From Ditylenchus dipsaci (lineage: Eukaryota; Nematoda; Chromadorea; Rhabditida; Anguinidae), in the NCBI GenBank assembly GCA_004194705.1, contig SADC01000025.1, positions 124,001 through 188,000 on the forward strand: a stretch of DNA of 64,000 bases. Direction: 5' to 3'. The position numbers and the translations under genes are program-made. Shown piece by piece: positions 22,890 to 56,246 of this stretch. The notes beneath the pieces were generated by a model. The model was not told the origin of the DNA and made no database searches. It saw only the letters and a program-made list of their open reading frames with translations. Position 1 is the stretch's first letter, and each line of letters starts with the position of its first letter.

Positions 22890-24425
22890 TCAGGCAGTGC
22901 CAATGGGTTGAAGATCATAACGCAATTGATCAAAATAAATAACACGATGAAGAATAGGCTCCAGAAGTACTAAAGCTAGAAGTATTTTAGTATAAGGATC
23001 ACAACTAATATTCGGATGTGTCAGAAATACGCGGAATTTAGACTTATTGATACAAAAACAATATACCGTATAACCTCTAATAAACGGGCACCCCCTGGAT
23101 TCAAAATCGTGTTCTTGGCATTGTGTTTTAGCCCATCTTTTATAGTTTGATCTTGGAAAAGTTACCACCCAATTGGTAGCCAATGAGATGAGCTACAAGA
23201 TGAGTGGTAATTTGCCTGAGAAAATTCTTCAAAAAATAGGTGAAAAACATAATGCCAACAACAGGATTTTGAATTAGGGGGTGCCCGTTTATTAGAGGTT
23301 ATACGGTAATTTCGAAATTTATTCAGAGTAAAATATTGATATATTTTTTCAACTGTTCAGTTTTGTTTAACACGAACGAAATTATGCAGCGAGCAAGGGT
23401 TGGAAAGCGAAAAATAAAGCTTATTTCATATACCGTCAGAAATCCATTTTGAAAAATGTGCCAAAACATAACAGGGGTATCAAGTCTAAATTCCGGATAT
23501 TTTTTACACAACCTTAAATTTAAAAAAATTTTCCAACAAAATGTTTTTGTTATAAAAAAAACTTTTAGTTACATCTTCCAATAAAATATTTAATATTAAT
23601 GGGTTATCTCGGCGCATTTTACAAATTTTCTTGTTTTATTTTTTTTTGTTTAGGCTTAGGTTAAGACGGCCTTAAAGGAGGAAGAAAAGCCATTTAGGTT
23701 TGAAGAAGTGGCCCTGGTGGTGCAGTGCGTAAGCATTTGTGTTTTTGGTTGAAAATGGTGTTACAGGTTCGATCCCACCTGGTAATATGCTACTTATTTT
23801 GGCTTGTTTGACCAGTTTTAGAAGTAATAAGACTTTTTTGACGCCAGATTCGGAACCAGCGACCCAAATTACCTCTAGAGCTGGTCAAACAAGCCAAAAA
23901 AGTAAAGTGTAACACTATTTTGCAACACTATTTTGGGCCAAAAAAATACAAACGTTTACGCACTGCGCCACGGAAGCCACTTTTTCAAACCTAAATGGCT
24001 TTTCCCCTTCTTTTAAACTCAATGAACTCCATTCTAAAGTAGGCTGCCCTAACCTGCACAAGCAACTTTAAAATTAGAAAAAAAGTCAAAAATGTTCCAC
24101 AAATAGGCCTCATAATACTATTAATATTAACATATAAAGTACCGAAGATTTTTTTCAAAATGTCAAATAAATATTTAGAATCTCCCAAAATACAAATATT
24201 AAAAATACATATGGCGCATTTTCTAGACCTTACACTGTAGAAAAGATAGATTTGCATAACTAGTGTGTTTTTGTTTGCACTTCCAATTAGACAAATCACT
24301 GGGAATAAACAGCTGACAAATAGCAAACAGAGATGTATTATCCGCAGGGGATTAAAGCCATGCACACTGTCTTTGATTGTTAGAAATGTGGCGTATGAGA
24401 TCAAGAAAAGCAATTCAACAACCAT
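22890..24425 (-). CDS. putative multi-pass membrane protein
   Basis: Not recognised as a known family. The ATG at 24425 begins a hydrophobic exon (MVVELLFLISYATFLT; LRIIHLCLLFVSCLFPVICL), which can splice near 24232 to a second exon, about 24125-24058 (YYEAYLWNIFDFFSNFKVAC). A last open segment, about 23044-22890, holds ILLALVLLEPILHRVIYF and ends at a stop before AATAAA-like words. Together they give about four membrane spans, like small tetraspan proteins. The splice phase into the last segment is not resolved, and a MITE (23064-23308) and a tRNA-derived foldback (23691-24007) lie between. It may be a real gene with repeat-filled introns or a decaying one. Confidence 0.38.
23064..23308. mobile_element. 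MITE, TACCGTATAACCTC family
   Basis: Inverted ends of about 32 bp: TACCGTATAACCTCTAATAA and its invert, followed by ACGGGCACCCCC. Relatives are at 27768-28005 and, degenerate, at 8380-8605; end fragments occur near 1575, 15080, 32022 and 35463. Confidence 0.7.
23691..24007. repeat. tRNA-derived inverted repeat
   Basis: The left arm contains a box A-like TGGTGCAGTGCGTAAGC and box B-like GGTTCGATCCCACC. The right arm is a diverged inverted copy (GCCATTTAGGTTTGAA and GGCGCAGTGCGTAAAC when reversed). This suggests two tRNA-related SINE copies head to head, or a foldback built on one. No cloverleaf with a paired acceptor stem is visible. Confidence 0.5.
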
Positions 24426-40318: not shown

Positions 40319-40324
40319 AACGAA

Positions 40325-42607
40325 AGTAGTCCTCCACCTAGATTTGTAACATTGTATGGGAAATGGACACTTCCTTATTAGGCGCCCAGGGGAAGGGTCA
40401 GAGACGGAGGCGATGTTATTTGGGGGTTTTCTTACAATAGCACTTTTTGCAAAAATGCTATTGGGCGGATCAGAATTCCAGTCCGATGGGCTTAATTACT
40501 CAGAAATTCACCCTGAACCATTCTCAACCATCTAAAACCACCCTAAGCACTGATTTAGGGTAGTTAGATACTGGTCTGGAGCAGTTTGGGATGGTTTAGG
40601 GTTCTTTAAGATGGTTGAGAATGGTTCAGGGTGAAATTCTGGTGCGTGAACGTTTCAGCACTTTTTTTCATTTGAACAAAGTGCTGAAACGTCACTTTAC
40701 CGAAATTCTGATCGATTCAGCCGATCGGACTGGAATTCTGATCCGCCTAATCGCATTTTTGCAAAAAGTTTACTCCCTCTTCAGTAAACCCCAAGAAACC
40801 GATTTTCAGGGGCTTCTGGCCACTCTGGGGTGGGATTTTGAGCGATCCAAGTCATTTTTGACTATAAAATTCGGATTCCCGCAAAATTTACTGCAGTTTG
40901 CGGCAAAATTCCGACTTTTTGCGGCAAAATTCCGACTATTTGCGGCAAAATTCCGACTTTTTGCGGCAAAATTCCGATTTGCCCGAGAATAAATGATCAA
41001 AAATAACACAGCAGACACGGGAATCGAACCTAAGACCAATATTTACCGCGCTGCTATGCCACTGAGCTACCTGGGCCACTTATATAAATTAAGTTTTTCA
41101 TTATAATATTCCAACAACACATAATTCAAAAAACATTTTTGGAGTAAAAAAAAGTATCCCGCGCGCATTCGAATTTCCCAAATTCCCATTGTCATCAACA
41201 AGTATGGTCCTTTAAACCGGTGGCGCGCCGGCGCCGGCTTATCACAGCCTTTCAAAATTTGAATTTCCTTGTAGTTCAACTCAAACAAAACGCCAAGAAT
41301 TAAGTTGCCGTTTTTACGCGCCTTTTTAATTTTTTTGTCTTTTCTTCACCGAAATGTACTGTTTTTTGCAAAAAGCACAGGGTCTTTTACTCCAAAAGAT
41401 CTTTTGTTTAGAAATTACATCGTATGCCTTTTTCAAAATCTTGTTTGTCCATTACATGAGCTCCGTTAATAATATTCTGGCATCCCATAACTAGTTATGC
41501 ATCATGTCAATAAATGTACTAAAAATGTCAGGAAAATTATGTCAGGCAAATTTTTCGGTGGGGACCAGCAATTTTTTTCTTGCTTTTTTTTTTGCTCTCG
41601 TTCTACCTCATCGGACGAAAATTTTCTGCATACTTTTTAAAAGTAGGATGAGGTCATAAATATTAAATTTCAGTTGAAACAAGTGATTAATGGTTTTGCC
41701 TTGATTTGCAGTGTAACGCGCTAGTACTCCCATTTAGACAGTCTGGTTGCGGGTTAGACAGTCTGGACCTCAAGCCGAACGTCCACGAACACCATATAAA
41801 CAACAGATACACAAATGACCGCTTATACATATACCTACATTTTACTTATGTGTATAATGTTTTAATCCAAACATTCTGTTCCTCATGAACCACATCTCAA
41901 TCTTTCATCTCTTATCGCACCTATTAACATTCACACCTTATAATCGGCTAGGACAGCAATCTTTATTCACTACTAAAAACATCTCTCAAACGCAGGCAAA
42001 AATAACAACAGCAAACATGACAACTGAAAAATATAACTATAATTGATTCTTGTTAGCGCCAGTTCCCTTGAATTGACGAACCACATTGCTCACCGCTTGA
42101 CTTGCCACTCCACATAGCTGCCGATTTGCACGAACCCAGGACCTCGATGACGAATAAGGACGAAACCGGCGCGTAGCTCCCTTCATTGTCTGCAGTAACA
42201 TCTGCAAATTGACGAAAATTAATTTGATGAACCGACCTCGAGCGTGCACGCAAAATATCATACAAAGGAAAATGGAAGAGACAACACAACAGACACTATG
42301 AGTTTCAATGGGCAAAATCCATGGCCATATTTTAGTTTATGGCCAAAATCCAACAATGTAAGACCGAAAGGCGGTATTTTATGGCCAAATTCGAGTTTAT
42401 GTCGAAAATTCAAAAGTTTACGGCCAAAATTCAGAAGTTTACGGCCAAAATTCAGTATTTTACGGCCAAAATTCAGTATTTTACGGCCAAAATTCAGTAT
42501 TTTACGGCGGTTCGAGTTTACGGCCAAAATTAAATATTTTACGGCCATTTTTCAGTATTTTACGGCCAAAATTAAATGCCACCCTGTTGTAAATGCTATC
42601 TTGGCGT
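40325..42607 (+). repeat. left arm of the giant element
   Basis: From the outer end inward: a 0.33-kb hairpin (about 40437-40770, arms GGCGGATCAGAATTCCAGTC and CACCCTGAACCATTCTCAAC), four tandem TTTGCGGCAAAATTCCGAC units (40895-40985), a tRNA-like stretch (41010-41077), a GGCGCGCCGGCGCCGG island (41222), a region with a small open frame on the minus strand (42037-42260), and five or six TTACGGCCAAAATTCAG units (42415-42560). It matches the right arm along its whole length. Confidence 0.85.
41010..41077 (-). repeat. tRNA-like sequence in left arm
   Basis: Reversed, it reads GGCCCAGGTAGCTCAGTGGC (box A) and ends GGTTCGATTCCCGTG (box B). The acceptor ends GGCCCAG and GTCTGCT do not pair, so it is a tRNA pseudogene or SINE head. 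It has one base more than the right-arm copy in the anticodon region. Confidence 0.5.
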
Positions 42608-43022
42608 TTTGATTTCACTAGACTTTACAAATGCTAGTAGAAATCGTTGGCAAAAAGGAAATTTCGTAAATGCTAGCTTGGAGTTTTGTTTTCACTAAAC
42701 TTTGCAAATGCTAGTAAAGATTTCCCGCAAAATTGAACTTTTGTAAATGCTAGTGTGGCCATTTTTCACAATTCTGTGGCCAAAATTAAATACCACCCTT
42801 TTGTTTTTACTAGACTTTACAAAAGCTAGTAAAATCAGTTTGGTGAGCTAGACTTTTAATATACTAGTGTTGGCGATTTGCCTTCTACTAGCATTCTCAA
42901 AAACAGGCCTTTTTTGCGAACCCTGCTTAGGAGTTCGAAAAAACATTATTTTCAAGTTCTGCTAAATAAAAAATTGAGTTTTGGACATTTTAAAATTTCG
43001 ACCATTTGCCTGTTTTGGCATG
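42608..43022. repeat. aatgctag-type irregular array
   Basis: Just inside the left arm, irregular repeats of GTAAATGCTAG / CTAGACTTTACAAATGCTAG with spacers. Non-coding. Confidence 0.5.
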
Positions 43023-43282
43023 TTTTGGTCACTGGAGCTGGGCAAAAAGAGCCTTTAAATGCATTTTTGTTCGAGAGTCTTGCTCGGAATTATGTCTAAG
43101 GTAAGTGAGTGCGCGAATCTCTAACCAACCAAGCCCCTTGCGCCCACGAAGGGGGCGCAGGGGCTTGGTTGCTTGGGGTTGAGATGCGCACACCCACATA
43201 CCTTAGACGCAGATCACTCGAAAGTTACTCTGGATGCATAAAAATGTATGCATACCAGAGTTTCTTTATGCAGTAGGCCCCA
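43023..43282 (+). repeat. 260-bp structured repeat, copy 2
   Basis: Copy of 21407-21667, including the donor-like TCTAAG|GTAAGTG (donor at 43101), the CCCCTTGCGCCC...GGGCGCAGGGG hairpin and the small GGATGCAT/ATGCATACC hairpin. Here it has no long foldback arms, so the core moves or is copied independently of the 21220-21912 arms. Stem changes look partly compensated. Confidence 0.55.
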
Positions 43283-43546
43283 GGGGTATACTCCGGTAGC
43301 GCCATTATTTCAATAATGATCAATTTTTAAAGTAAAAAATTTGTCACAGAACTTTTTTCACTATTCAGCAAGGCCGGCGGACGTCTGGCGTTAAAAATTT
43401 TTAGTCGGACGGCCGGCAGACGTATAATAATAAAATAATAATGGAATTCAAAAATATGTTATTTCGATAATGTTCACGAACAATAGAGTCATAGGCTATT
43501 CCCTTTTCCTGATATATCTCCTCTTTTCTACAAATGGTGGTGGGAT

Positions 43547-43667
43547 TTAAACAGGAGCAGACGCGGCCCCAGGTACAGCATCAAGCCAATCAACAGGTTG
43601 AGTGGTAGGCACATCAGCAAGAGCATTGGCAGGCACGGGAGCGTGCAGTCCAACATCATTACCAACT
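43547..43667 (-). CDS. alternative last exon of the F-box-like/PAT-repeat gene
   Basis: The acceptor CTTTCAG|AGTTGG opens a phase-2 exon reading VGNDVGLHAPVPANALADV, then TTQPVDWLDAVPGAASAPV and a stop. Its start parallels the last exon of the upstream gene (KGIDVGLGVPPPATP at 46539), and the same donor at 46659 fits either in phase. No own first exon was found. So it is probably an alternative terminal exon, made by duplication, for a short tail without the long Pro/Ala/Thr repeat, or a pseudo-exon. Confidence 0.45.
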
Positions 43668-43888
43668 CTGAAAGAAATAAAATTTAAGTGGTGGTTAAGG
43701 AAGGCCAATGTTTTGAATTTTTTCAGGGAAGTTCAGTTTTTAGCTGCCATATGCCGATTCTGAGGGAAAACTAATGAAAAAATTATCAAATTTTTGAAAT
43801 AAGGTCATTCGAAAATTGAGATTTCGCCTTGGTCTCTCCTAAAGTTCTAATTTTTTTAAATCACAAGGGGGAGGGTGGCTAGTAAAAA

Positions 43889-44060
43889 TACAGTGTCCTC
43901 TTGATATAGTGACCCCCTGATGTAGTGACCCCCTTCGATATAGTGACCCTTGAAGCGCGATTTGGTTGGCCAGCAGAGAAATAAGGAGAACTATACTCTC
44001 GATATAGTGACCCCCTTAGCTCATTCCCAATGGGGGTCACTATATCGAGAGTAGACTATC
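43889..44060. mobile_element. hairpin MITE, gatatagtgacccc units
   Basis: Tandem GATATAGTGACCCCC words on the left and the inverted GGGGGTCACTATATCGAGAG on the right. The ends ACAGTGTCCTCTTGATATAG and ATCGAGAGTAGAC are typical of small Tc1/mariner-type MITEs. Confidence 0.6.
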
Positions 44061-44109
44061 AATTTTCGATTACCTGATTTTATTTCTCTGGTTACATTTC
44101 TATGAGTAA

Positions 44110-44310
44110 ATGAGTTACTGCTTCAATAACACAGGCAGAAGGGTAGTTCTGACAGAAGCACTTTCACAATTTCGACAGTTGGTATCTAATGAAGTGGACA
44201 GAGGGGAAGATAACAAAAATAGCTACGTGAATGATGAGTTTCTTAAAGAACCATTGCCGTCTAAGAAAACGAGTTTTGTACGTTTGAATTCGCGGGAGAC
44301 AGCGTTTTTA
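44110..44310 (+). CDS. short unrecognised open frame, possibly cut by a MITE
   Basis: The ATG at 44110 opens about 67 codons with normal-looking composition (MSYCFNNTGRRVVLTEALSQ, then RQLVSNEVDRGEDNKNSYV, ending LNSRETAF) before running into the MITE at 44310-44814. It lies opposite in strand to the other genes of the giant element. No domain is recognised. It may be an exon or the 5' part of an interrupted gene. Confidence 0.25.
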
Positions 44311-44814
44311 CTAGGGTTGGGTGATGGAAATACTCCCGCTTTATTTCCGGTCCGAATCTTAGATTCAGACCGGCAATGAAAAATCGGTCCGAATCTTTTC
44401 GAAAATAAAAATTTTGGCTGGAGTACAGAATCCCTAAGTGACCTGAATTCACCCAAAATCATCTTTTTCAACGTTTTAGCACCTTATTTCTGCTTGAAAC
44501 ATGTTTTTAGGTGGCGTCTTGATAAAAAAAACTTGACCAAACTTTTTTTCTTGGGAGCCAAGGTAAGCCAACCTGAAAGGGTATCCAGGTACCCTACAAG
44601 ATATATGCACCGTATGTAATAGTATTCTATTTTGATGAAAATTTTGATGTGTTCTTTAACGATTTTCATTGATATTTTATGATTTTTTGAAAAAATTTAA
44701 TTATTTGGATATAAAAGATTCTGACCTAACCGGACCAGAATAAAAACATAGACCGAGAATATTACCGAAAATATTCTCGGAAAAGATTCTCACCAGTTTC
44801 ATTCCAACCCTAGT
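44310..44814. mobile_element. foldback MITE with ctagggttgg ends
   Basis: CTAGGGTTGG at the left and CCAACCCTAG at the right, with TTTTTAC-like sequence outside both ends. Inner arms repeat TCCGGTCCGAATCTTAGA and AGAATATT words. Non-coding. Confidence 0.6.
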
Positions 44815-44951
44815 TTTTACTCTAAAAATGCACGAAATTTTTTTTGAACTATAAAGTGATCAAAATAGTGATAAAATTATTTGTTTCGTGCATTTTATGA
44901 GTGAAAAAGCTGTCCCCCGCCTATTCAAACATACAAATTCAACCGTCCTAG

Positions 44952-45182
44952 TGCAGAAGCGGTTGCCAAAACTTACCTTGGTCCTCCCTGTTCTTTTTTT
45001 GCGAAATATGCCTTGGTCCCCCCCTGTTCATTATAGTTATATTAATATAGTGATTGTAGTGATCATGGTGATTATGGTTAACATCACCTTTACCATGATC
45101 ACCTTTACCATGATCACCTTTACCATGATCACCTTCAAAACAACAGGGGGACCAAGGCAAATTTTGGCAACCGCTTCTGCAT
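44952..45182. mobile_element. foldback MITE with accatgatcacc array
   Basis: Arms TGCAGAAGCGGTTGCCAAAA and its invert, then CCTTGGTCC / GGACCAAGG. The loop holds four copies of the 14-bp unit TTTACCATGATCACC (45085-45135). Confidence 0.65.
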
Positions 45183-45743
45183 TAGGGCCACATCAATTCA
45201 AACACATCAAACATACATCGTAGACGGCAATGGCCATTTAAATTTGAATACAATAAATAAAACACTCTGAACTAATGTTAGGAGTTAGAGTTTTGAGCAA
45301 AAAACAGAGCAAAAAATTATGAACTTTTTGCCTGAGTGAAAAACCGAGGAAATGAATAAAAGCATAGCCGAAAAAAATCGATTCGAAGGTAGATGTACCT
45401 ACACAATATATACAAACCTAGTGCAGAGGTTGCAGAATCAACAATGAAGGTATTTAGACACAACCACCGCTTCACTTTATAGCACCACAGAATACAGAAA
45501 CAAACAAAAACTTTTGCTGGTTTTGAAAAGCTCTTGGTAAAAAAACTTTTGGTGGTGTAAGTGTAAGAAAAAATATAGTCTGCTCTAACCAAAAATCCTA
45601 AAACACATCCTAGGCGCTACGAGAATTGTTTTCGATCAAAATAAAGTTCCTCACCAAAAACATCACACTCTAACAACCCAACAAAATAAATGGCCATAGC
45701 AATAATTTATTTCCACTAACGGTCATGCAACGAAGTCAAATAA
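45183..45743. other. no gene recognised
   Basis: AT-rich sequence downstream (on the minus strand) of the PAT-repeat gene stop at 45744. A 91-codon minus-strand frame here lacks any domain or splice support. The 3' UTR of the 45744-46987 gene should lie here. Confidence 0.4.
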
Positions 45744-46987
45744 CTACTTCGGCCCTATCTTGTATTTCTGCGACGGATGATTCGGAGTGATCTGAGTAGG
45801 GCGGCACGTAATTCTGGCTCCAGGGACCTGCCGAATGTTACGAATAGGACGAATACGACGGATCTTTGGCGCAGCAGGTGTAGCGACAGCAGGCGTAGCA
45901 GCAGCAGGAGTCGTAGCAGCAGGAGTCGTAGCAGCAGCAGGCGTAGCAGCAGGAGGCGTACCAGCAAGAGGCGTAGCGACAGGAGGCGTAGCGACAGGAG
46001 GCGTACCAGCAAGAGGCGTAGCGACAGGAGGCGTAGCGACAGGAGGCGTACCAGCAGGAGGCGTAGCAGCGGGAGGCGTAGCAGCGGGAGGCGTAGCGAC
46101 AGGAGGCGTAGCGACAGGAGGCGTAGCGACAGGAGGCGTAGCGACAGGAGGCGTAGCGACAGGAGGCGTACCAGCAGGAGGCGTAGCAGGAGGCGTAACA
46201 GCAAGAAGCGTAGCGACAAGAAGCGTAGCGACAAGAGGCGTAGCGACAAGAGGCGTAGCGACAGGAGGCGTACCAGCAGGAGGCGTAGCAGCGGGAGGCG
46301 TAGCAGCGGGAGGCGTAGCGACAGGAGGCGTAGCAGCGGGAGGCGTAGCGACAGGAGGCGTAGCGACAGGAGGCGTACCAGCAGGAGGCGTAGCGACAGG
46401 AGGCGTACCAGCAGGAGGCGTACCAGCAGGAGGCGTAGCAGCGGGAGGCGTAGCAGCGGGAGGCGTAGCGCCAGCAGGCGAAGCAGCAGCAGCAGGCGTG
46501 GCAGGAGGCGGCACCCCAAGACCAACATCAATCCCCTTTCTGAAGAAAAGAGGTTATTTAAAAGTGGTTATCAAGTTTTTGTCTAACTACTTCGGGACCC
46601 TTTGACCAGTTACAAAAGGCTACGAATTAGCAAGCCAGGATTAAAATCAAAAAGAAACCTGAGAGCGTATTGTTCCAAGTTCTCGATGCACAAATTGATA
46701 GTTTGCTTGATGATTTCCGTCTTATGGCGGTGCTCGTCATTGCCCAGCTTTTCCAACAATTCTCCAAGACGACGATAAGAATTCATCTTAAATCACATGA
46801 AAATGGTTTTGTACAGAAATAATGTCTTAGATTGAAGAATCATATGAATAAGTACCTCCCTGTGATGATGAGCTATTAATTTAGTGACAAGAAAGCCAGT
46901 CGTACATGACGACATTACCACTAATGTGCAACACGTATCAAAGTTCACAAAACTGGCTATGTCACAGAAAATTTCTGCCGGTATCAT
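45744..46987 (-). CDS. F-box-like protein with long Pro/Ala/Thr repeat tail
   Basis: Three exons in phase (46987-46856, 46786-46659, 46539-45744) give about 351 codons. Exon 1 is F-box-like: IPAEIFCDIASFVNFDTCC, then LVVMSSCTTGFLVTKLIAHH. Exon 2 is a charged helix (MNSYRRLGELLEKLGNDEH, IIKQTINLCIENLEQYAL). Exon 3 starts KGIDVGLGV and is then about 40 copies of a 5-residue T-P-P-[AVG]-[AT] unit, coded by a 15-bp repeat, before a basic tail (IRRIRPIRNIRQ, CRPTQITPNHPSQKYKIG). F-box proteins recruit substrates to SCF ubiquitin ligases. That role is inferred from exon 1 only, and exon 1 could belong to a separate gene. The 43547-43667 exon fits the same donor. It is cargo of the 15-kb element. 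Confidence 0.55.
45880..46500. repeat. 15-bp coding minisatellite
   Basis: About 40 copies of GCGACAGGAGGCGTA-like units, GC-rich, fully within the last exon of the 45744-46987 gene. Since 15 is a multiple of 3, all six frames are nearly open, which explains the other long open frames here. Confidence 0.9.
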
Positions 46988-47519
46988 AGTAATATTTTAA
47001 AATGACAGAACTTTTTTTTAAGCAATAATTTAAGAAATTGAACAAGCTAAGCAATCATTTTTAGAAGTACGCAGAAAGAATAACTTTTTGACTGACACTT
47101 CTCATCACATCTAAAAAACATTTATCGAAAACCTATAAAGTTTGAGCGTGAATTCAAAAAACATTTCTATATCTACATTTAAACATCGACGAAAACACGA
47201 AGAGCTGCGGACCGCAGCCTGTGGTTACTTCTCTAACATCTCTGTTTTATTATTAATGTTGACACCTTTTTTTTAATCCGACGATTTTCTATACACAATA
47301 ACATACGCGTGAAAAGTAGATGTTTTACGTCGCCCTACTTTGAAATCAAAACCACATGATGACAATATTCTGAACTAAAATTGAAGATTGATAAACCGTT
47401 GTGTAGAAAAATCGTAGAGAAATCGTCGCATTTTAAAAAAGGTACCAGCAATAAAAAAAAATAACAAGGGGTTGTCAGAGCTAAAAATCAAAAAGTGTTT
47501 AAAATAAACGAATTCCACG
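46988..47519. other. upstream region of the F-box-like gene
   Basis: AT-rich with no exon recognised. It lies upstream of the ATG at 46987 on the minus strand and may contain its promoter. Confidence 0.4.
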
Positions 47520-47850
47520 TCGATAACTCGATGCATTTTGCTCTCGAAATGTAAAAAATAATTTTTCCATGATCCGATTTGAAACCCGTCCGGTACTCAA
47601 ACGCCCAAGCCTACTTGGGTTGGACCCAGGGTTAGACACTTTTAGCCTTGATTTTGGAGACTTCTGCCATATCTGATTGGTGTCAGAAATCGCAAGGAAT
47701 CCAATTTTACAAGTCTTTTACCGATCGTAAGAGTTTTGCTCAAAGACCCGCGACTATTTGATATAACTTTTCATTTTATTTTCAAAAAAGGTGACATCAT
47801 ATCGAGAGGGTTTTTCAGCGAAACTGTCGCAATTTTTAAAAACTATTGGT
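47520..47850. mobile_element. decayed foldback related to 221-650
   Basis: Shares GTTAGACACTTTTAGCC, AGAAATCGCAAGGAATCC and TCCAATTTTAC words with the 221-650 / 24831-25262 family. The arms are too diverged to define the ends. Confidence 0.4.
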
Positions 47851-47901
47851 AAATTATCGATATCTTCGCAATCTTTCAGACTAGACCAGCCCAGGACAAC
47901 T

Positions 47902-48977
47902 AGAGATGGCGACGGGACGGGATCCCGTACGGGATCCCGTCCCGCCCGCCCCGATTTTGGCCCAAAATCCCGTCCCGTTATCCCGCCCGTTTTTTTCGAA
48001 AATCCCGGTCCCGTTCCCGTTTTTTGCCTAATCCCGCTAGTCATTTTCAGGAAAATTTTGTCCTAAAAAAAGCAATTTTGAGAGAATTTTTTTATGAATT
48101 CTCATTTTTTGCAGAAATTTCGAGAATTCGATTATTCCTTGTTTGCTATGTTTGTGACTTCCTTTATTTTTTCACTCTACTTTTAAGCAAGTTCACTGGC
48201 TTCTAGGCTAAAAATCATTGAGCAATGGATTGCAACCATTTGCAGCACTGTTTTACTGTTAGCAAATGGCTTGAATTTGGCAATTGAATGCGAATGACCA
48301 TCAAAGTAAAGGGAAATCACCCAAATTGATAAGTACTTAGTTTCATATCGCGTCAACCTCTACACATTTGTTTACTGCTCAAAATGTGATGGCAATTTTT
48401 TCAGTCAGAATCAGGGGTAATTTGCCTAATTTGCCTACTTTTTCGGTCAAGGGGCGTAATTACCCCATGACCGCACCTTCCCCTCCCTAAAATATAATCC
48501 AACCAGAGTTTTGAAACTTTCTGGAAAACAAACCATTTCGAGAAAACAAAAAATTTCAAAATAGAAGAAATATTTTATTAGTTTTCAGCAACAGGGTGAC
48601 CAAGCTGTTTTCATAAAAAAAAACGACAGGGGAAACCAAAATTTCTTCGGCACAGTAGAACCGGAGTAATCTTAAAATCAGCGAGGCAGAAATTTTAATC
48701 TTTTGAACAGAGTCCTAACGCAGTTGAATTATTGTTATTAAAATTATTTTGCATCGATGTACATCGAGGTATGTGAGAAAATTTCAATAAAAAACATCCT
48801 TTTGAAGCGCTGGGGCCACTTTTACTGTGAAATTAACGATAAAAGAAAATCCCGTTTTTCGGGCGGGATCCCGCGGGATCCCGTTTTTCAAACTCAAAAT
48901 CCCGTTCCCGTTCCCGTTTTTATTTTGGTCGAAAATCCCGTCCCGTTATCCCGCCCGCCCCCCATTCGCCATCTCTA
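47902..48977. mobile_element. tandem-array-TIR element, gggatcccg type, copy 2
   Basis: Starts AGAGATGGCGACGGGACGGG and ends CGCCATCTCTA, with ACGGGATCCCGT/CCCGTCCCG arrays at both ends (47913-48040, 48846-48960). AGGACAACT flanks it exactly (47893-47901, 48978-48986). It is non-coding and lies inside the giant element, between two cargo genes, so it arrived after that element formed. Confidence 0.8.
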
Positions 48978-49151
48978 AGGACAACTGGCAAAAGAATTCG
49001 AATTTAGGCCTCGAAATTGTTAGACCTAATCCAGGAACAAACTCCGTGGGTGACGTTACATAACGCTTTGTGAAGGAGACTGTACATACATAATGTAAAA
49101 GTCGTAGAGGATTTAATGAACGGAAAATAAAAACTAAGCCAGCACACTAAC

Positions 49152-49441
49152 CTGTAAATATACGCCTAGAAGACTGTCCGGAGCCATTTTTTTCCAAGTA
49201 TCGGGAATTGTCTCCTTCGCAACTTTTTTGACAGGCACTTCATCATTAATTGAGAAAAGTCTCTTGATTGATGGCGGAGACACTGGAGCAGCAAAGAGAT
49301 TATTCTTCGTCTTGTCAGAACTTTCTTTGAAAACTTCGACTTCTATTTTTACAGCTTCATCTTTGTTTGGTCGAGCCTTTGGAAGAGCACTTGCTTGTCG
49401 AACTATTTATTTGCTGGCGATAAAGATTTTCTTGTGCACAT
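49152..49441 (-). pseudogene. small Lys/Glu-rich cargo exon with a frame break
   Basis: The ATG at 49441 reads MCTRKSLSPANK and stops at TAG (about 49404). A one-base shift resumes VRQASALPKARPNKDEAVKI, then SPPSIKRLFSINDEVPVKK, WKKMAPDSLLGVYLQ, ending at the good donor CAG|GTTAGT (49152). The next exon was not identified; the MNSYRR exon at 46786 would fit in phase 0. The composition (Lys, Glu, Ser, Pro) and the Q|phase-0 exon end resemble the coiled-coil gene at 50438-51596. It could be a broken paralogue, or an intact gene with a sequencing error. Confidence 0.4.
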
Positions 49442-49735
49442 GATGACGGCAGCAACCAACGGCAACTTTGGCAACCAACAACATCAGAAAGCTGACTGAA
49501 TTTGACAAATTAGATAGATCGCATGCATACTTGCACGCTCGCCATAAATAAAAAAGCGCCGGCGCTTTTTCATTTACACCGCCGGCTGCAGCGCCAGGTC
49601 GTCAAAAATTTCGCAAAGTATTATAATTACGTCGCTATTTTTGTGTTTTATGAGAAATCGCTGTCGATTTGCTTCTTTTGTGTGCTGCTTTTCTAGATTG
49701 CGATTGATTTATTGTTTTCAGCTATTTGATGCAAT

Positions 49736-49925
49736 CGTAGGCGAACACGCCAATTAATTTTGCGATCGTATTGATCGAATTTTAGGCGTATACGCCAATT
49801 AATTTTGCGATCGTATTGATCGAATTTTAGGCGATTACGCAAATTAATTTTGCGATTTTATTGATCAAATTGTAGGCGAATAATCCAATTAATTTTGCGA
49901 TTTTATTAATCGATTTGTAGGCAAA
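49736..49925. repeat. four-copy 45-48-bp tandem repeat
   Basis: Unit contains CGCCAATTAATTTTGCGAT and TATTGATCGAATTTTAGGCG. Copies diverge progressively from left to right. It lies between cargo genes. Confidence 0.8.
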
Positions 49926-50136
49926 TCCGTCGGAAGAATATAATTTAAGATCATTTAGCTCACCAAATCAAATCATTTTAGAATCATACATCTGTAGAGC
50001 TGCTTGCGAAATGATATAAGAAAAGTAAAAGAAAGCATTCATTAATCTAATCAGTAACGAAAATCAACATATCCAATCACAAGTCAGTGCCTTAAATGCA
50101 CAACTTTATTAATAAGAACACACAATAATGCAAGTA

Positions 50137-50380
50137 CAGGGTGGCCAAAAAAAAGCGGCCACTTGAAAAAAATTGCGCAGATAGCTACTTGACACATCGA
50201 TTTCCCCAGAAAAATCGCTGGCAGTGGTTAAGCTACCTAGGAGCTTTGTGGTGTTTCTTTTTATCACCGGCATTGTCGAGGAGGTTTCCGACGGCTTGCC
50301 ACCCAAAAATCGGAAACCGACCGGGCAAGGGTCACGTACTTCAATTTTTTAAGGTGGCCGAATCTTTTTGGGCCACCCTG
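50137..50380. mobile_element. mariner/Tc1-type MITE
   Basis: Ends CAGGGTGGCCAAAAA and TTTTTGGGCCACCCTG, with TA immediately outside both. A TACAGGGTGGCC-type TIR with a TA target is typical of mariner/Tc1 elements. Short minus-strand frames inside look like fragments only. Confidence 0.7.
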
Positions 50381-50437
50381 TAGACCAGGTAACTACTTGG
50401 TTCAACAATAACAACAAGCATAAACACATGAACATTC

Positions 50438-51596
50438 CTATTTTCTCATAGTTGGAATAAGAGTTTCTACCGCCGTTTTACGCTGCGTCTCAAAGATACT
50501 AGTCGCATACTCCCTCTCCAATTCTTCCTTAGTCTTGGTTTCGTTGTCACGACCTTGCAGGAGATTGTCTTTTGCTATAGCTTCCTCTTCATACTTACTG
50601 CGATTCTCAAAGAAGAATAGGACCTTGTGTTCATATTGTAGAGACTTTTGCTGAGCTGCGATTTCATCCAGACGAAGCCGTAACTCAAGACGCTCGGCCT
50701 GAAAGCAACTTTATAAATGGATTTCATAAACAGACGTAGAGTAAAAGACAGATTGCAATCTTATGCATTATATTTTCTTAGCTTATTCATGGACCATTTA
50801 ACATACTCAACAAATTCTTGACTGATGTCCTTCAGGTTAACTTTTATGCCAAAAAAATTAGATTCCCTAAGGGTGAACATCCTAGAAAAATATTTAACGC
50901 TAGGCACATTCTTATTCTCCCTTTTATAAAATCTAGCTAATTTTCAGTCGAGCCTAAAACAAGAAGGGTCAAGTATTTTTCAGTCGCAGCATTCGAAAAA
51001 CTGAAACTGATTAGACTAAGAATTGGTCTGCGAAATGAGCGGCGATCCAAAAGTACCGCAAGAAATTTTAAAGCTCAACTAGAATCTGTGCGAGATAAAC
51101 TTAGTTAAAGGACCATGGTTTTTGCGAGCAGTGGCATGTGCAAAATTTGAATTGGCGGAAGACACTTCTCTTTCGTCTCAAACTTTACTCTTTGGAGTCT
51201 TCCACCGTAATCTCAAAGAGTACAGTTCGAGACGAAAGAGAAGTATACCCCGCCAATTCAAATTTTGTACATGCCACTGCGCGCAAAAACCATGCCCCTT
51301 TAAACACAAGAAAACACCTGCACTTCAATAAACTTGTATCTGGCGTCATTCCATTCTGAAAATTGCTTCTTCTGAAAATTCATCAACTTCTGCTCTTCCT
51401 CAGCAAGAATTGGAGAAAACATCTTGTGAAGCATCTTGGCAGTTGGAATTTCCGACGAAGGTTCCTCGAGAATTTCTAGCGATTTTGGTTCCTTAAGAGT
51501 CTCTAGCGATGCTTGTGGAACGACACTCTCTTCTTTCCCTGACTCAGCATCGAATTCAGCTGCATCATTAGACTGTTCGCCTATTGACTGAGATTT
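50438..51596 (-). CDS. coiled-coil cargo protein of the giant element
   Basis: Exon 51596-51318 (93 codons, phase 0-0) has a good CTGCAG acceptor and a CAG|GTGTTT donor. It is acidic (SQSIGEQSNDAAEFDAESG, PSSEIPTAKMLHKMFSPIL, EWNDARYKFIEVQ). Exon 50698-50438 follows a CTTTCAG acceptor and is a heptad-like coiled coil (AERLELRLRLDEIAAQQ, RDNETKTKEELEREYATSI) ending at TAG. Two other candidate exons lie in the intron: 50953-50933 (ARLKIS, stop), in phase after VQ, and 50881-50761 (MFTLRESNFFGIKVNLKD to LRKYNA, stop), out of phase unless it has its own start. At least one more 5' exon is missing. An open segment at about 53090-52985 with SKRRKKERLL is a weak candidate. No known family is recognised. 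Confidence 0.5.
51107..51303. mobile_element. foldback MITE, ttaaaggaccatgg family
   Basis: Ends TTAAAGGACCATGGTTTTTG and AACCATGCCCCTTTAA. The arms carry CATGTGCAAAATTTGAATTG and CTTCTCTTTCGTCTC with their inverts. It lies in the intron of the coiled-coil gene. Relative of 34825-35007. Confidence 0.65.
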
Positions 51597-51629
51597 CTGC
51601 AGAGATACACCAAAGGAGATCAGACTTTT

Positions 51630-51826
51630 ATGGCTTGGTTACAATGGCATGTCGATGTCGAAGTCGATGTCGAAGCAAAGTGGTTACAGTGACATGTCGA
51701 TGTCTATGTCTATGTCGATGTCGAAGGTGGTTACAGTGACGTGTCGAAGTCGATGTCGATGTCGAAGCAAAGTGGTTACAGTGACATGTCGATGTCGAAG
51801 TCTATGTCGATGTCGAAGTAGGCTTT
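51630..51826. repeat. gtcgatgtcgaag minisatellite
   Basis: Higher-order repeat of GTCGATGTCGAAG words separated by TGGTTACAGTGACAT. Small open frames here are artefacts of the repeat. Confidence 0.8.
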
Positions 51827-52158
51827 TTAATATAGATTTTGGGAATTCGAAATCGTTCGAATTTTTTTTTCTTCTGCTTCGACAAGAGCTAGGTTTTTAA
51901 CAGTCAAATACAATTATTTTTACTCATCTGGTGCGGAATTTCATGCGCTATCTTTTGTGCTATAAAATTTTAAAAAAGGCAATGAAAAACGTCTAACGAA
52001 TTGATTTTTCAGAACTACATCGAATTTTTTCTTTGCACTTCGATTCACCAAATGACCTGAAAGGTCAAACGTTAGTCTTTTTACATCTAAAATTATGGTA
52101 AAAAATAAAGTGTGCACCCAGGTGGATTCGAACCAGCAACATCGGCGGTGCATATCCA

Positions 52159-52936
52159 AGTGGTCGTCCACTTGGATCAAAAAAATTTATCACGTTTTTG
52201 GATTCCAAGATAATTTTTCTGAACTACTTTGAGCATGCTGAAGATGGTTTGACAGTGTTAAAATCACGTTTTATCGAGAAATTTTTCAGATGTCGTAAAT
52301 TCTTGATTTTGATAATCAAGAGTTCACAATAACTCAGAAATTTATCGATAAAACGTGATTTTACCACTGTCAAACCCTCTTCAGCATGCTCGAATTAGTG
52401 CAGAAAAATGGTTTTGGAACCAGAAAACGTTTTTGATCCAAGTGGACGACCACTTGGTTTAGTTGGTGCACGGATTATCCAGTAGAACTGAGGTTGGATC
52501 ATATAAAACATTTAAAATGATGGTAGTTCTTCACACGACAAAAATATTACTGCCCTGGTACCACTACATTACCTGAATTCCACAACCTGGGTGCGACTAC
52601 CTGGGTACAACAAAACCAAGTGGTCGTCCACTTGGATCAAAAAACAATTCACGTTTTTCAGGATTTGAAACCTATTTTCTGGACTGATTCGGGCATGCTG
52701 AAGATGGTTTGATAGGGTAAAATGAAGTCTTCCCGGATATTTTTTGAGTATTGAGCAATAATTGATTTTGGTGAAATCAATTATTGCCCAAAACTCAAAA
52801 AATACTCGAGAAAACGGCATTTTACTATTATCAAACCATCATCAGCATGCTCGAAATAATCCAAAAAATAGATTTTGGAACAAGAAAAACGTAAAAATTT
52901 TTTTAGCACCAAGTGGACGACCACTTGGTTTGGTTG
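52159..52936. mobile_element. two copies of the ccaagtggtcgtccacttgg foldback family
   Basis: Copies at about 52159-52460 and 52618-52936. Each end is itself a palindrome (CCAAGTGGTCGTCCACTTGG). Inner arms share GAGCATGCTGAAGATGGTTT and AAACCATCATCAGCATGCTC-like words. Further copies are at 57935-58115, 61295-61530 and 61540-61770. A T-arm-like GGTTCGAATCCACC (minus, about 52120-52134) abuts the first copy. Confidence 0.65.
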
Positions 52937-53241
52937 CTTCAGACTGAAAAATTAACAAATATTTTAGGAATTGTCTGCTGTTTCAAAGAAGTCGCTCCTT
53001 TTTCCGTCTTTTACTCGTTGGGGCTCTGTCGTTAGTGTGATTCAAGGATTCCTCAAATTGTGTCCGTGTCTGGTGTGAAATATTGTCATGGAGTGAATTA
53101 TCTCATCTAGGTTTGCCTTTTTTAAGTTAACAATTAACTGTCAGTGAAAAAAGCCTTATAAAAGCGCGTGTAATTAGCATAGATCCCATACATCTTGTTA
53201 ACAAGATTGTTAAAACGCTATTGTCAAAACGCCAAGATTGT

Positions 53242-55500
53242 CAAACGCCAAGATAGCATTTACAACAGGGTGGTATTTAATTTTGGCCGTAAAATACTGA
53301 AAAATGGCCGTAAAATATTTAATTTTGGCCGTAAACTCGAACCGCCGTAAAATACTGAATTTTGGCCGTAAAATACTGAATTTTGGCCGTAAACTTCTGA
53401 ATTTTGGCCGTAAACTTTTGAATTTTCGACATAAACTCGAATTTGGCCATAAAATACCGCCTTTCGGTCTTACATTGTTGGATTTTGGCCATAAACTAAA
53501 ATATGGCCATGGATTTCGCCCATTGAAACTCATAGTGTCTGTTGTGTTGTCTCTTCCATTTTCCTTTTGTATGATATTTTGCGTGCACGCTCGAGGTCGG
53601 TTCATCAAATTAATTTTCGTCAATTTGCAGATGTTACTGCAGACAATGAAGGGGAGCTACGCGCCGGTTTCGTCCTTATTCGTCATCGAGGTCCTGGGTT
53701 CGTGCAAATCGGCAGCTATGTGGAGTGGCAAGTCAAGCGGTGAGCAATGTGGTTCGTCAATTCAAGGGAACTGGCGCTAACAAGAATCAATTATAGTTAT
53801 ATTTTTCAGTTGTCATGTTTGCTGTTGTTATTTTTTGCCTGCGTTTGAGAGATGTTTTTAGTAGTGAATAAAGATTGCTGTCCTAGCCGATTATAAGGTG
53901 TGAATGTTAATAGGTGCGATAAGAGATGAAAGATTGAGATGTGGTTCATGAGGACAGAATGTTTGGATTAAACATTATACACATAAGTAAAATGTAGGTA
54001 TATGTATAAGCGGTCATTTGTGTATCTGTTGTTATATGGTGTTCGTGGACGTTCGGCTTGAGGTCCAGACTGTCTAACCCGCAACCAGACTGTCTAAATG
54101 GGAGTACTAGCGCGTTACACTGCAAATCAAGGCAAAACCATTAATCACTTGTTTCAACTGAAATTTAATATTTATGACCTCATCCTACTTTTAAAAAGTA
54201 TGCAGAAAATTTTCGTCCGATGAGGTAGAACGAGAGCAAAAAAAAAAGCAAGAAAAAAATTGCTGGTCCCACCGAAAAATTTGCCTGACATAATTTTCCT
54301 GACATTTTTAGTACATTTATTGACATGATGCATAACTAGTTATGGGATGCCAGAATATTATTAACGGAGCTCATGTAATGGACAAACAAGATTTTGAAAA
54401 AGGCATACGATGTAATTTCTAAACAAAAGATCTTTTGGAGTAAAAGACCCTGTGCTTTTTGCAAAAAACAGTACATTTCGGTGAAGAAAAGACAAAAAAA
54501 TTAAAAAGGCGCGTAAAAACGGCAACTTAATTCTTGGCGTTTTGTTTGAGTTGAACTACAAGGAAATTCAAATTTTGAAAGGCTGTGATAAGCCGGCGCC
54601 GGGCGCCACCGGTTTAAAGGACCATACTTGTTGATGACAATGGGAATTTGGGAAATTCGAATGCGCGCGGGATACTTTTTTTACTCCAAAAATGTTTTTT
54701 GAATTATGTGTTGTTGGAATATTATAATGAAAAACTTAATTTATATAAGTGGCCCAGGTAGCTCAGTGGCATAGCAGCGCGGTAATATTGGTCTTAGGTT
54801 CGATTCCCGTGTCTGCTGTGTTATTTTTGATCATTTATTCTCGGGCAAATCGGAATTTTGCCGCAAAAAGTCGGAATTTTGCCGCAAATAGTCGGAATTT
54901 TGCCGCAAAAAGTCGGAATTTTGCCGCAAACTGCAGTAAATTTTGCGGGAATCCGAATTTTATAGTCAAAAATGACTTGGATCGCTCAAAATCCCACCCA
55001 GAGTGGCCAGAAGCCCTGAAAATCGGTTTCTTGGGGGTTTACTGAAGAGGGAGTAAACTTTTTGCAAAAATGCGATTAGGCGGATCAGAATTCCAGTCCG
55101 ATCGGCTGAATCGATCAGAATTTCGGTAAAGTGACGTTTCAGCACTTTGTTCAAATGAAAAAAAGTGCTGAAACGTTCACGCACCAGAATTTCACCCTGA
55201 ACCATTCTCAACCATCTTAAAGAACCCTAAACCATCCCAAACTGCTCCAGACCAGTATCTAACTACCCTAAATCAGTGCTTAGGGTGGTTTTAGATGGTT
55301 GAGAATGGTTCAGGGTGAATTTCTGAGTAATTAAGCCCATCGGACTGGAATTCTGATCCGCCAATAGCATTTTTGCAAAAAGTGCTATTGTAAGAAAACC
55401 CCAAATAACATCGCCTCCGTCTCTGACCTTCCCTGGGCGCCTAATAAGGAAGTGTCCATTTCCCATACAATGTTACAAATCTAGGTGGAGGACTACTACT
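53242..55500 (-). repeat. right arm of the giant element
   Basis: An inverted copy of 40325-42607. Differences noticed: one fewer 21-bp TTACGGCCAAAATTCAG-type unit, GGGG against GGG in the AAGGGGAGCTACGCG word (53650), one extra terminal AGT, and scattered substitutions. The minus-strand frame near 42178 is therefore not conserved between arms. In this arm a plus-strand frame reads MKGSYAPVSSLFVIEV; in the left arm the same DNA reads GATRRFRPYSSSRSW. Confidence 0.85.
54751..54818 (+). repeat. tRNA-like sequence in right arm
   Basis: Box A TAGCTCAGTGG and box B GGTTCGATTCC at tRNA spacing, with a T run (TTATTTTT) just downstream as a possible Pol III stop. Acceptor pairing is absent. It could still drive Pol III transcription from the TIR. 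Confidence 0.5.
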
Positions 55501-56246
55501 AACGAACTATTAAAGGTTTCCACAACAATTTTTTTATTAGTTCAGTCATGTTATGCTCAAAATGACCGATAGAATCTAGCGAACATTTTGATAATCAGAG
55601 CTTTCAAAGATCATATATAATTTTTGAGAACCGACAAAAGTACAGCATGTTACGTAACTCGACAAACGTAATACGCTGTTACCTGACTTACTTTTGTCGA
55701 TTTCTCAAAAATTTGTAAATAAACCTTAAGAAATACTTATCACCAAAATGTTTGATAGATTCTAGCGGTCATTTTAAGTACAAGATGACAAAGGTTAAAA
55801 TAAAATATTAGTCGAAAAGGGCCGAAATCGGCCAACATTGAAACCAATAAAACACCAATAAAATCGATAAAACCAATAAAAGGGTACGTGACGTTTGATC
55901 GAAAAACCGTTTGACCGAAAATCCGTTTGATCGAAAACTGTTTCATCGAAAACCGTTTGATCGAAAACCGTTTGATCGAAAACCGTTTCATCGAAAGGGA
56001 CGTTTGATCGAAAGGGACGTTTCGTCGAAAATATTTTCATATGGCAGTCAAACCGTGTATACAAGATTGTCATTGCCTTCATCCCAATTTATTTTATCTC
56101 TAAACGCACACTGATTCACGCACTTCTAAAAAGGCATGTTTCCCAAAAATAGCCAGCGTACTTGTAAATGACTCTAATTTCTTACAACGCAAATATATTT
56201 GAATTTATTGTAGATTTCAGATGGCGTTTAACATTGATTCAATGAA

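Follow-up and report, generated by a model that had tools for sequence, protein, structure and literature searches.

A giant mobile element of 15,176 bp occupies positions 40325-55500 of a 64,000-nucleotide stretch of the Ditylenchus dipsaci genome (assembly GCA_004194705.1, contig SADC01000025.1, positions 124,001 to 188,000 of the forward strand), which is referred to here as the window. With a probability of about 0.72, the element is a non-coding, non-autonomous satellite of the Maverick/Polinton type that is moved in trans. It is a real mobile element that has recently been moved or homogenised, being Maverick-type by its ends but not a Polinton by its gene content. What is new here is the large size without genes, together with the trace of end-to-end copying.

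Terminal arms and target site

The element is bounded by two inverted arms, of 2,285 bp on the left (40325-42609) and 2,258 bp on the right (53243-55500, minus strand; the other stranded features are given on the plus strand). Alignment of 40325-42609 with 55497-53243 in inverted orientation gives 98.25% identity over 2,289 columns, which bears out the element of about 15.2 kb with arms of about 2.27 kb proposed by an initial annotation. Between the arms, 2,251 aligned bases contain 2 substitutions, and the length differences amount to 17 one-base gaps plus a single 21-bp tandem unit. Nearly all of the gaps (16/17) lie within runs of at least two like bases; they are probable sequencing errors, and broken reading frames are therefore weakly informative here by themselves. 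Arm differences consisting almost entirely of one-base gaps in base runs are a sign of long-read assembly errors, and given such gaps, frame-based gene calls in the Ditylenchus dipsaci assembly need care.

The left arm starts with AGTAGTCCTCCACC, and the right end reads ...GGACTACTACT (arm terminus ...CTACTACT), which makes it one ACT unit longer than the left end. The outermost 3 bp of the right end are thus unmatched in the left arm, so that the arms, initially described as matching end to end, do so over the 2,289 columns and not in these three bases. The extra ACT belongs to the element, as the triplet preceding the left AACGAA is CGT, and the termini read (AGT)2//(ACT)3.

AACGAA stands directly outside both ends, at 40319-40324 and 55501-55506. 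In the 226,978,389-bp assembly (1,359 contigs), the joined 28-base flanks with a single AACGAA occur at five places with 2-3 mismatches. The best of these paralogous empty sites, C1304:173215-173242 (contigs are cited by number), reads CACGAGTCGCGTAACGAACTATCAAAGG, carries one AACGAA and no insert, and has 2 mismatches; its similarity to the joined flanks extends over 498 columns at 88.8%. This repeat-borne site indicates insertion of the element into a dispersed repeat with duplication of 6 bp, in agreement with the exact duplication initially reported.

That the inverted arm arose by mis-assembly is very improbable. The one-base gap differences between the arms would fit such an artefact, but the exact target-site duplication and the paralogous empty site speak against it. 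Moreover, the arms can be told apart by (ACT)3 versus (AGT)2, by the 2 substitutions and by the 21-bp unit, and the same pair anatomy recurs at four other loci.

Related ends and further copies

The terminal 106 bp have 28 matches in the genome, including the window's own ends (96 and 100%), C97:188543 (98%) and C1170:31935 (99%). The outermost ~103 bp (40325-40427) are common to the C97 and C1170 ends and diverged in the further related ends. Among the 24 other matches, 17 ends were read and two more rows fall inside those stretches; C308:130759, C1016, C1185, C460 and C1184 were left out of the comparison. AGTAGT is found at the edge in 15 of the 17 related ends, the chance baseline being its presence in about 4% of random 181-base stretches of the window.

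Inverted end pairs with perfect 6-bp duplications span 19,826 bp on C1105 (GACTAG), 24,107 bp on C1216 (GCACTT), 26,147 bp on C311 (CTAGTA) and 27,089 bp on C1258 (GGCGTA). Identical 6-bp flanks are hence present in all four further same-contig pairs read at both ends, or 5/5 counting the window. Four other loci with the same anatomy exclude chance and make this a family of giant elements, not a singleton. A further related end pair lies on C230. Other copies of the arms had been expected at about 15-kb spacing; inverted pairs do exist on four contigs, at 19.8-27.1 kb instead. Arms as free-standing 2.3-kb elements, the observation named as refuting the initial annotation, were not seen among the candidates scored (the best 40, or all 26).

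Parts of the window arms are dispersed repeats. One 1-kb piece sampled from the C1258 element holds reverse-transcriptase fragments, probably belonging to a nested retroelement. An inverted pair of about 1.1 kb at C1188:194156-195293 resembles AGTAGTTATCC ends at 81-82% and is possibly a miniature derivative. Interior pieces of the window element also lie outside the C1216 element, at C1216:355510-357742 and 390365-390998, in opposite orientation and about 33 kb apart.

Likeness to Mavericks and Polintons

PMC8097293 gives 5'-(AGT)2//(ACT)2-3' as the most frequent termini of vertebrate Mavericks; for intact ones it reports 6-bp target duplications, inverted repeats measuring 46-1,447 bp and lengths of 12.7-24.6 kb. 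The window element shares with the Mavericks so described the 6-bp duplication, AGT-type ends, inverted arms and a length within the 12.7-24.6 kb range, whereas its arms, at 2.26-2.28 kb, are longer than 46-1,447 bp and its right end is (ACT)3. It further differs from Mavericks/Polintons in that neither PolB nor integrase is matched and no Pfam domain exceeds its cut-off. The (AGT)2 start, the 6-bp duplication, the 15-kb size, the inverted arms and the four of four further pairs uphold the Maverick class first assigned to it, as far as the ends are concerned.

Another class of DNA transposon making 6-bp duplications, or an undescribed transposase, is an improbable source of the element. Dada, for example, has target duplications of 6-7 bp. 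No Polinton core gene lies in the element, and it is only the ends and the duplication length that suggest Polintons. Against this, the interior (six stop-masked frames, 42901-52800) yielded no transposase domain, and AGT-doublet ends with 6-bp duplications are, according to PMC8097293, the published Maverick signature.

Nematode Mavericks can carry captured cargo, according to the meeting report PMC10680173; these are likewise giant and presumably of the same transposition class, but the window element has no recognisable cargo gene. Non-coding or gene-fragment derivatives moved in trans include large retrotransposon derivatives and Pack-MULEs (PMC6431247). Such derivatives also keep the ends, lack the machinery and are presumed to move in trans, while the window family differs from the Pack-MULE type as described there in its size of 15-27 kb and its Maverick-type ends. 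Non-autonomous Polintons or Mavericks were not found described in the literature, judged mostly on titles and the starts of abstracts.

Search for genes in the interior

No coding sequence was detected in the unpaired interior (42610-53242), stretches of which are common to the copies on C97, C1170, C332 and C1216. It includes a 15-bp tandem array of 39.5 copies (45900-46489), a 45-bp tandem repeat (49726-49926) and a 1.08-kb stretch (47902-48977) that is not in the C97 and C1170 copies and was either inserted here or lost there.

The initial annotation had filled this interior with unrecognised minus-strand genes, one of them a PAT-repeat gene. Ten interior open reading frames (ORFs) gave a single Pfam match, a low-complexity one to Extensin_1 below the family cut-off. 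It falls on the 15-bp array, which is open in five frames at once and is what the supposed PAT-repeat gene actually is; the other nine ORFs scanned have no Pfam match. Six stop-masked frames of 42901-52800 returned only Extensin_1 on the array and DUF1319 (E 0.077), both under their cut-offs. In the same frames no Pfam match above cut-off was obtained for capsid, protease or packaging ATPase, no dedicated capsid profile being used. PHROGs gave no match in the three minus frames, to which that search was confined. A 112-residue ORF (51303-51638) had 4 candidates in a protein database, none at E 0.001, and Rfam and tRNA scans of the window returned nothing.

PF03175 (PolB) and PF00665 (integrase), searched at E 0.001, have 31 and 86 genome matches, respectively, none of them in the window element or its copies on C97, C1170, C332, C1105, C1216 (164-189 kb), C311, C1258 and C230. 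The absence of PolB and integrase noted initially thus holds at the profile level.

Changes between the window and C97 were counted in 25 ORFs with a minimum length of 60 codons; some of these ORFs overlap, and changes in the overlaps are counted more than once. The parts alignable to C97 lie within 42938-46389 and 48978-50719, the tandem array being left out. The ORFs there have 23 synonymous changes, against 25.1 expected without selection, along with 58 nonsynonymous and 7 stop changes; substitutions in these parts look neutral. The neutral ORFs and the six masked frames without an above-cut-off match leave no support for an interior filled with minus-strand genes.

The element could also be a decayed Maverick whose own or captured host genes were lost by mutation and insertion, although this is unlikely. 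Interior stretches are colinear in several copies, the interior is rich in dispersed repeats and short ORFs remain in it, as such decay would leave them. Conversely, PolB, integrase and any above-cut-off Pfam domain are untraceable in the six masked frames, four same-contig relatives likewise have no PolB or integrase match, and the nearly substitution-free arms mean that this copy was recently moved or homogenised.

Possible copying between arms

At 100-270 bp from the end, C97, C1170 and both C1105 ends have a conserved stretch in common; it is not found in the window on either strand with up to 5 errors allowed. Both window arms instead share an 890-bp segment at an identical junction, a derived segment with dispersed repeats (40428-41317 in the left arm). 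Its only matches to C97 or C1170 are two weak ones of 76%, to C1170 tandem repeats. The C1170 arm has a different segment of 1.39 kb at that place, which was not found in the window, and the 21-bp tandem repeats at 42378-42573, close to where the left arm meets the interior, are expanded in C1170. From the sequences compared, the shared derived segment would be best explained by one event copied from arm to arm, with host gene conversion as the alternative to replication for such copying.

The C97 and C1170 loci (C97:188543-200598 and C1170:23507-31935) bear on the same question. One end on C97 is GACACT|AGTAGT and the other end, on C1170, is ACTACT|GACACT; the termini resemble two sides of one insertion, yet both read into the same interior half. 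In this shared half, 14 substitutions separate them in 4,075 bases, while the outer 2,864 and 412 bases have 19 and 3. A single block, which we take to be a tandem array, holds 16 of those 19. Outside tandem arrays, 400-bp blocks of either copy mostly differ from the window by 0.5-2.5% substitutions, one C97 block reaching 4.5%, and blocks beside the tandem array differ by up to 6%; interior stretches are colinear among several copies. The C1170 contig departs from the element at 23507, with only dispersed-repeat matches from there to 15558; the C97 contig ends within the element.

These loci could represent a single insertion whose arms measure ~9 kb, two alleles that have their interiors inverted, or two separate insertions, which may have hit one and the same site of a repeat family. 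The last is thinkable because the C97 flank ends in ~190 bp of a dispersed repeat, whose listed family members are mostly 81-93% alike. No empty site for the GACACT duplication was found within 3 mismatches of 28 bases, a weak test in so repetitive a flank. For the rest of the C97 left flank, the best match among the best 40 of 843 candidates is 81%; the missing close second copy is a weak point against the two-alleles reading.

Possible helpers are the Polintons on C21, C1177, C1073, C1278 and C52, where PolB and integrase matches stand no more than ~10 kb apart, the C52 integrase match being under its cut-off. The C21 PolB is 40-55% identical to the best 120 of 876 database matches, one of which is named an adintovirus PolB. 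At C21:275181-307400 (loci L082, L083, L102 and L103), integrase and PolB are each matched in both of two inverted halves, making a palindromic Polinton. Its halves are 99.6% identical over 2.6 kb around PolB and 99.4% in a sample at 275.2-275.5/307.1-307.4 kb. If continuous between these two sampled stretches, the arms measure at least ~8.7 kb. No mirror match was found in samples near 272.6/309.8 and 270.2/312.0 kb, where an insertion could shift the mirror. Additionally, two PolB matches on C882 (1127571-1128348 and 1141545-1142372) are inverted, point outward and lie about 13 kb apart.

Arms of 8-9 kb thus seem to be present both at the C97/C1170 locus and in one true Polinton, suggesting that one end was copied onto the other and that such elements repeatedly lengthen their arms. 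A tentative extension, which we regard as rather doubtful, is that coding-free Polinton satellites of 15-27 kb are replicated by protein priming in trans and that their ends grow and are renewed by end-to-end copying, from 2.3 kb to ~9 kb, as in C21. It is weakened by the dispersed repeat in the C97 flank, which allows two insertions at the same site.

Proposed mode of movement and its meaning

For the satellite reading of the window element, a Polinton integrase acting in trans would recognise the AGTAGT ends and insert the linear DNA with a 6-bp stagger. A protein-primed Polinton polymerase, also in trans, may copy the element from its AGT-repeat ends. Slippage there would fit the extra AGT unit on one end, and the near-identical arms with their shared derived segment would be consistent with one end having been copied onto the other. 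Phage phi29 and adenovirus are linear replicons with protein-primed replication, and short repeats at inverted termini are common to them and to the window element, the latter being known here from sequence alone.

Several observations weigh against the satellite reading. The C308 and C398 ends (2/17) have no AGTAGT, and no PolB/integrase element has so far been shown to carry the ends of the window family. A related end at C21:316269 lies ~11 kb outside the C21 integrase, and the C21 palindrome was not found at the two more distant places sampled. Small exons could escape a coding test limited to the parts alignable to C97, and one-base gaps break frames, making the absence of long ORFs weak by itself.

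Polintons occupy a place between transposons and viruses, and ideas on the copying of their linear DNA are largely deduced from relatives. A gene-free family with Polinton ends would reveal the cis signals sufficient for movement and would provide naturally occurring DNA on which integrase and protein-primed replication could be tested, while arms sharing a derived segment would preserve a readable trace of end-to-end copying. If the tentative extension to protein priming in trans and growing ends is true, such coding-free elements would be to Polintons what satellites are to viruses.

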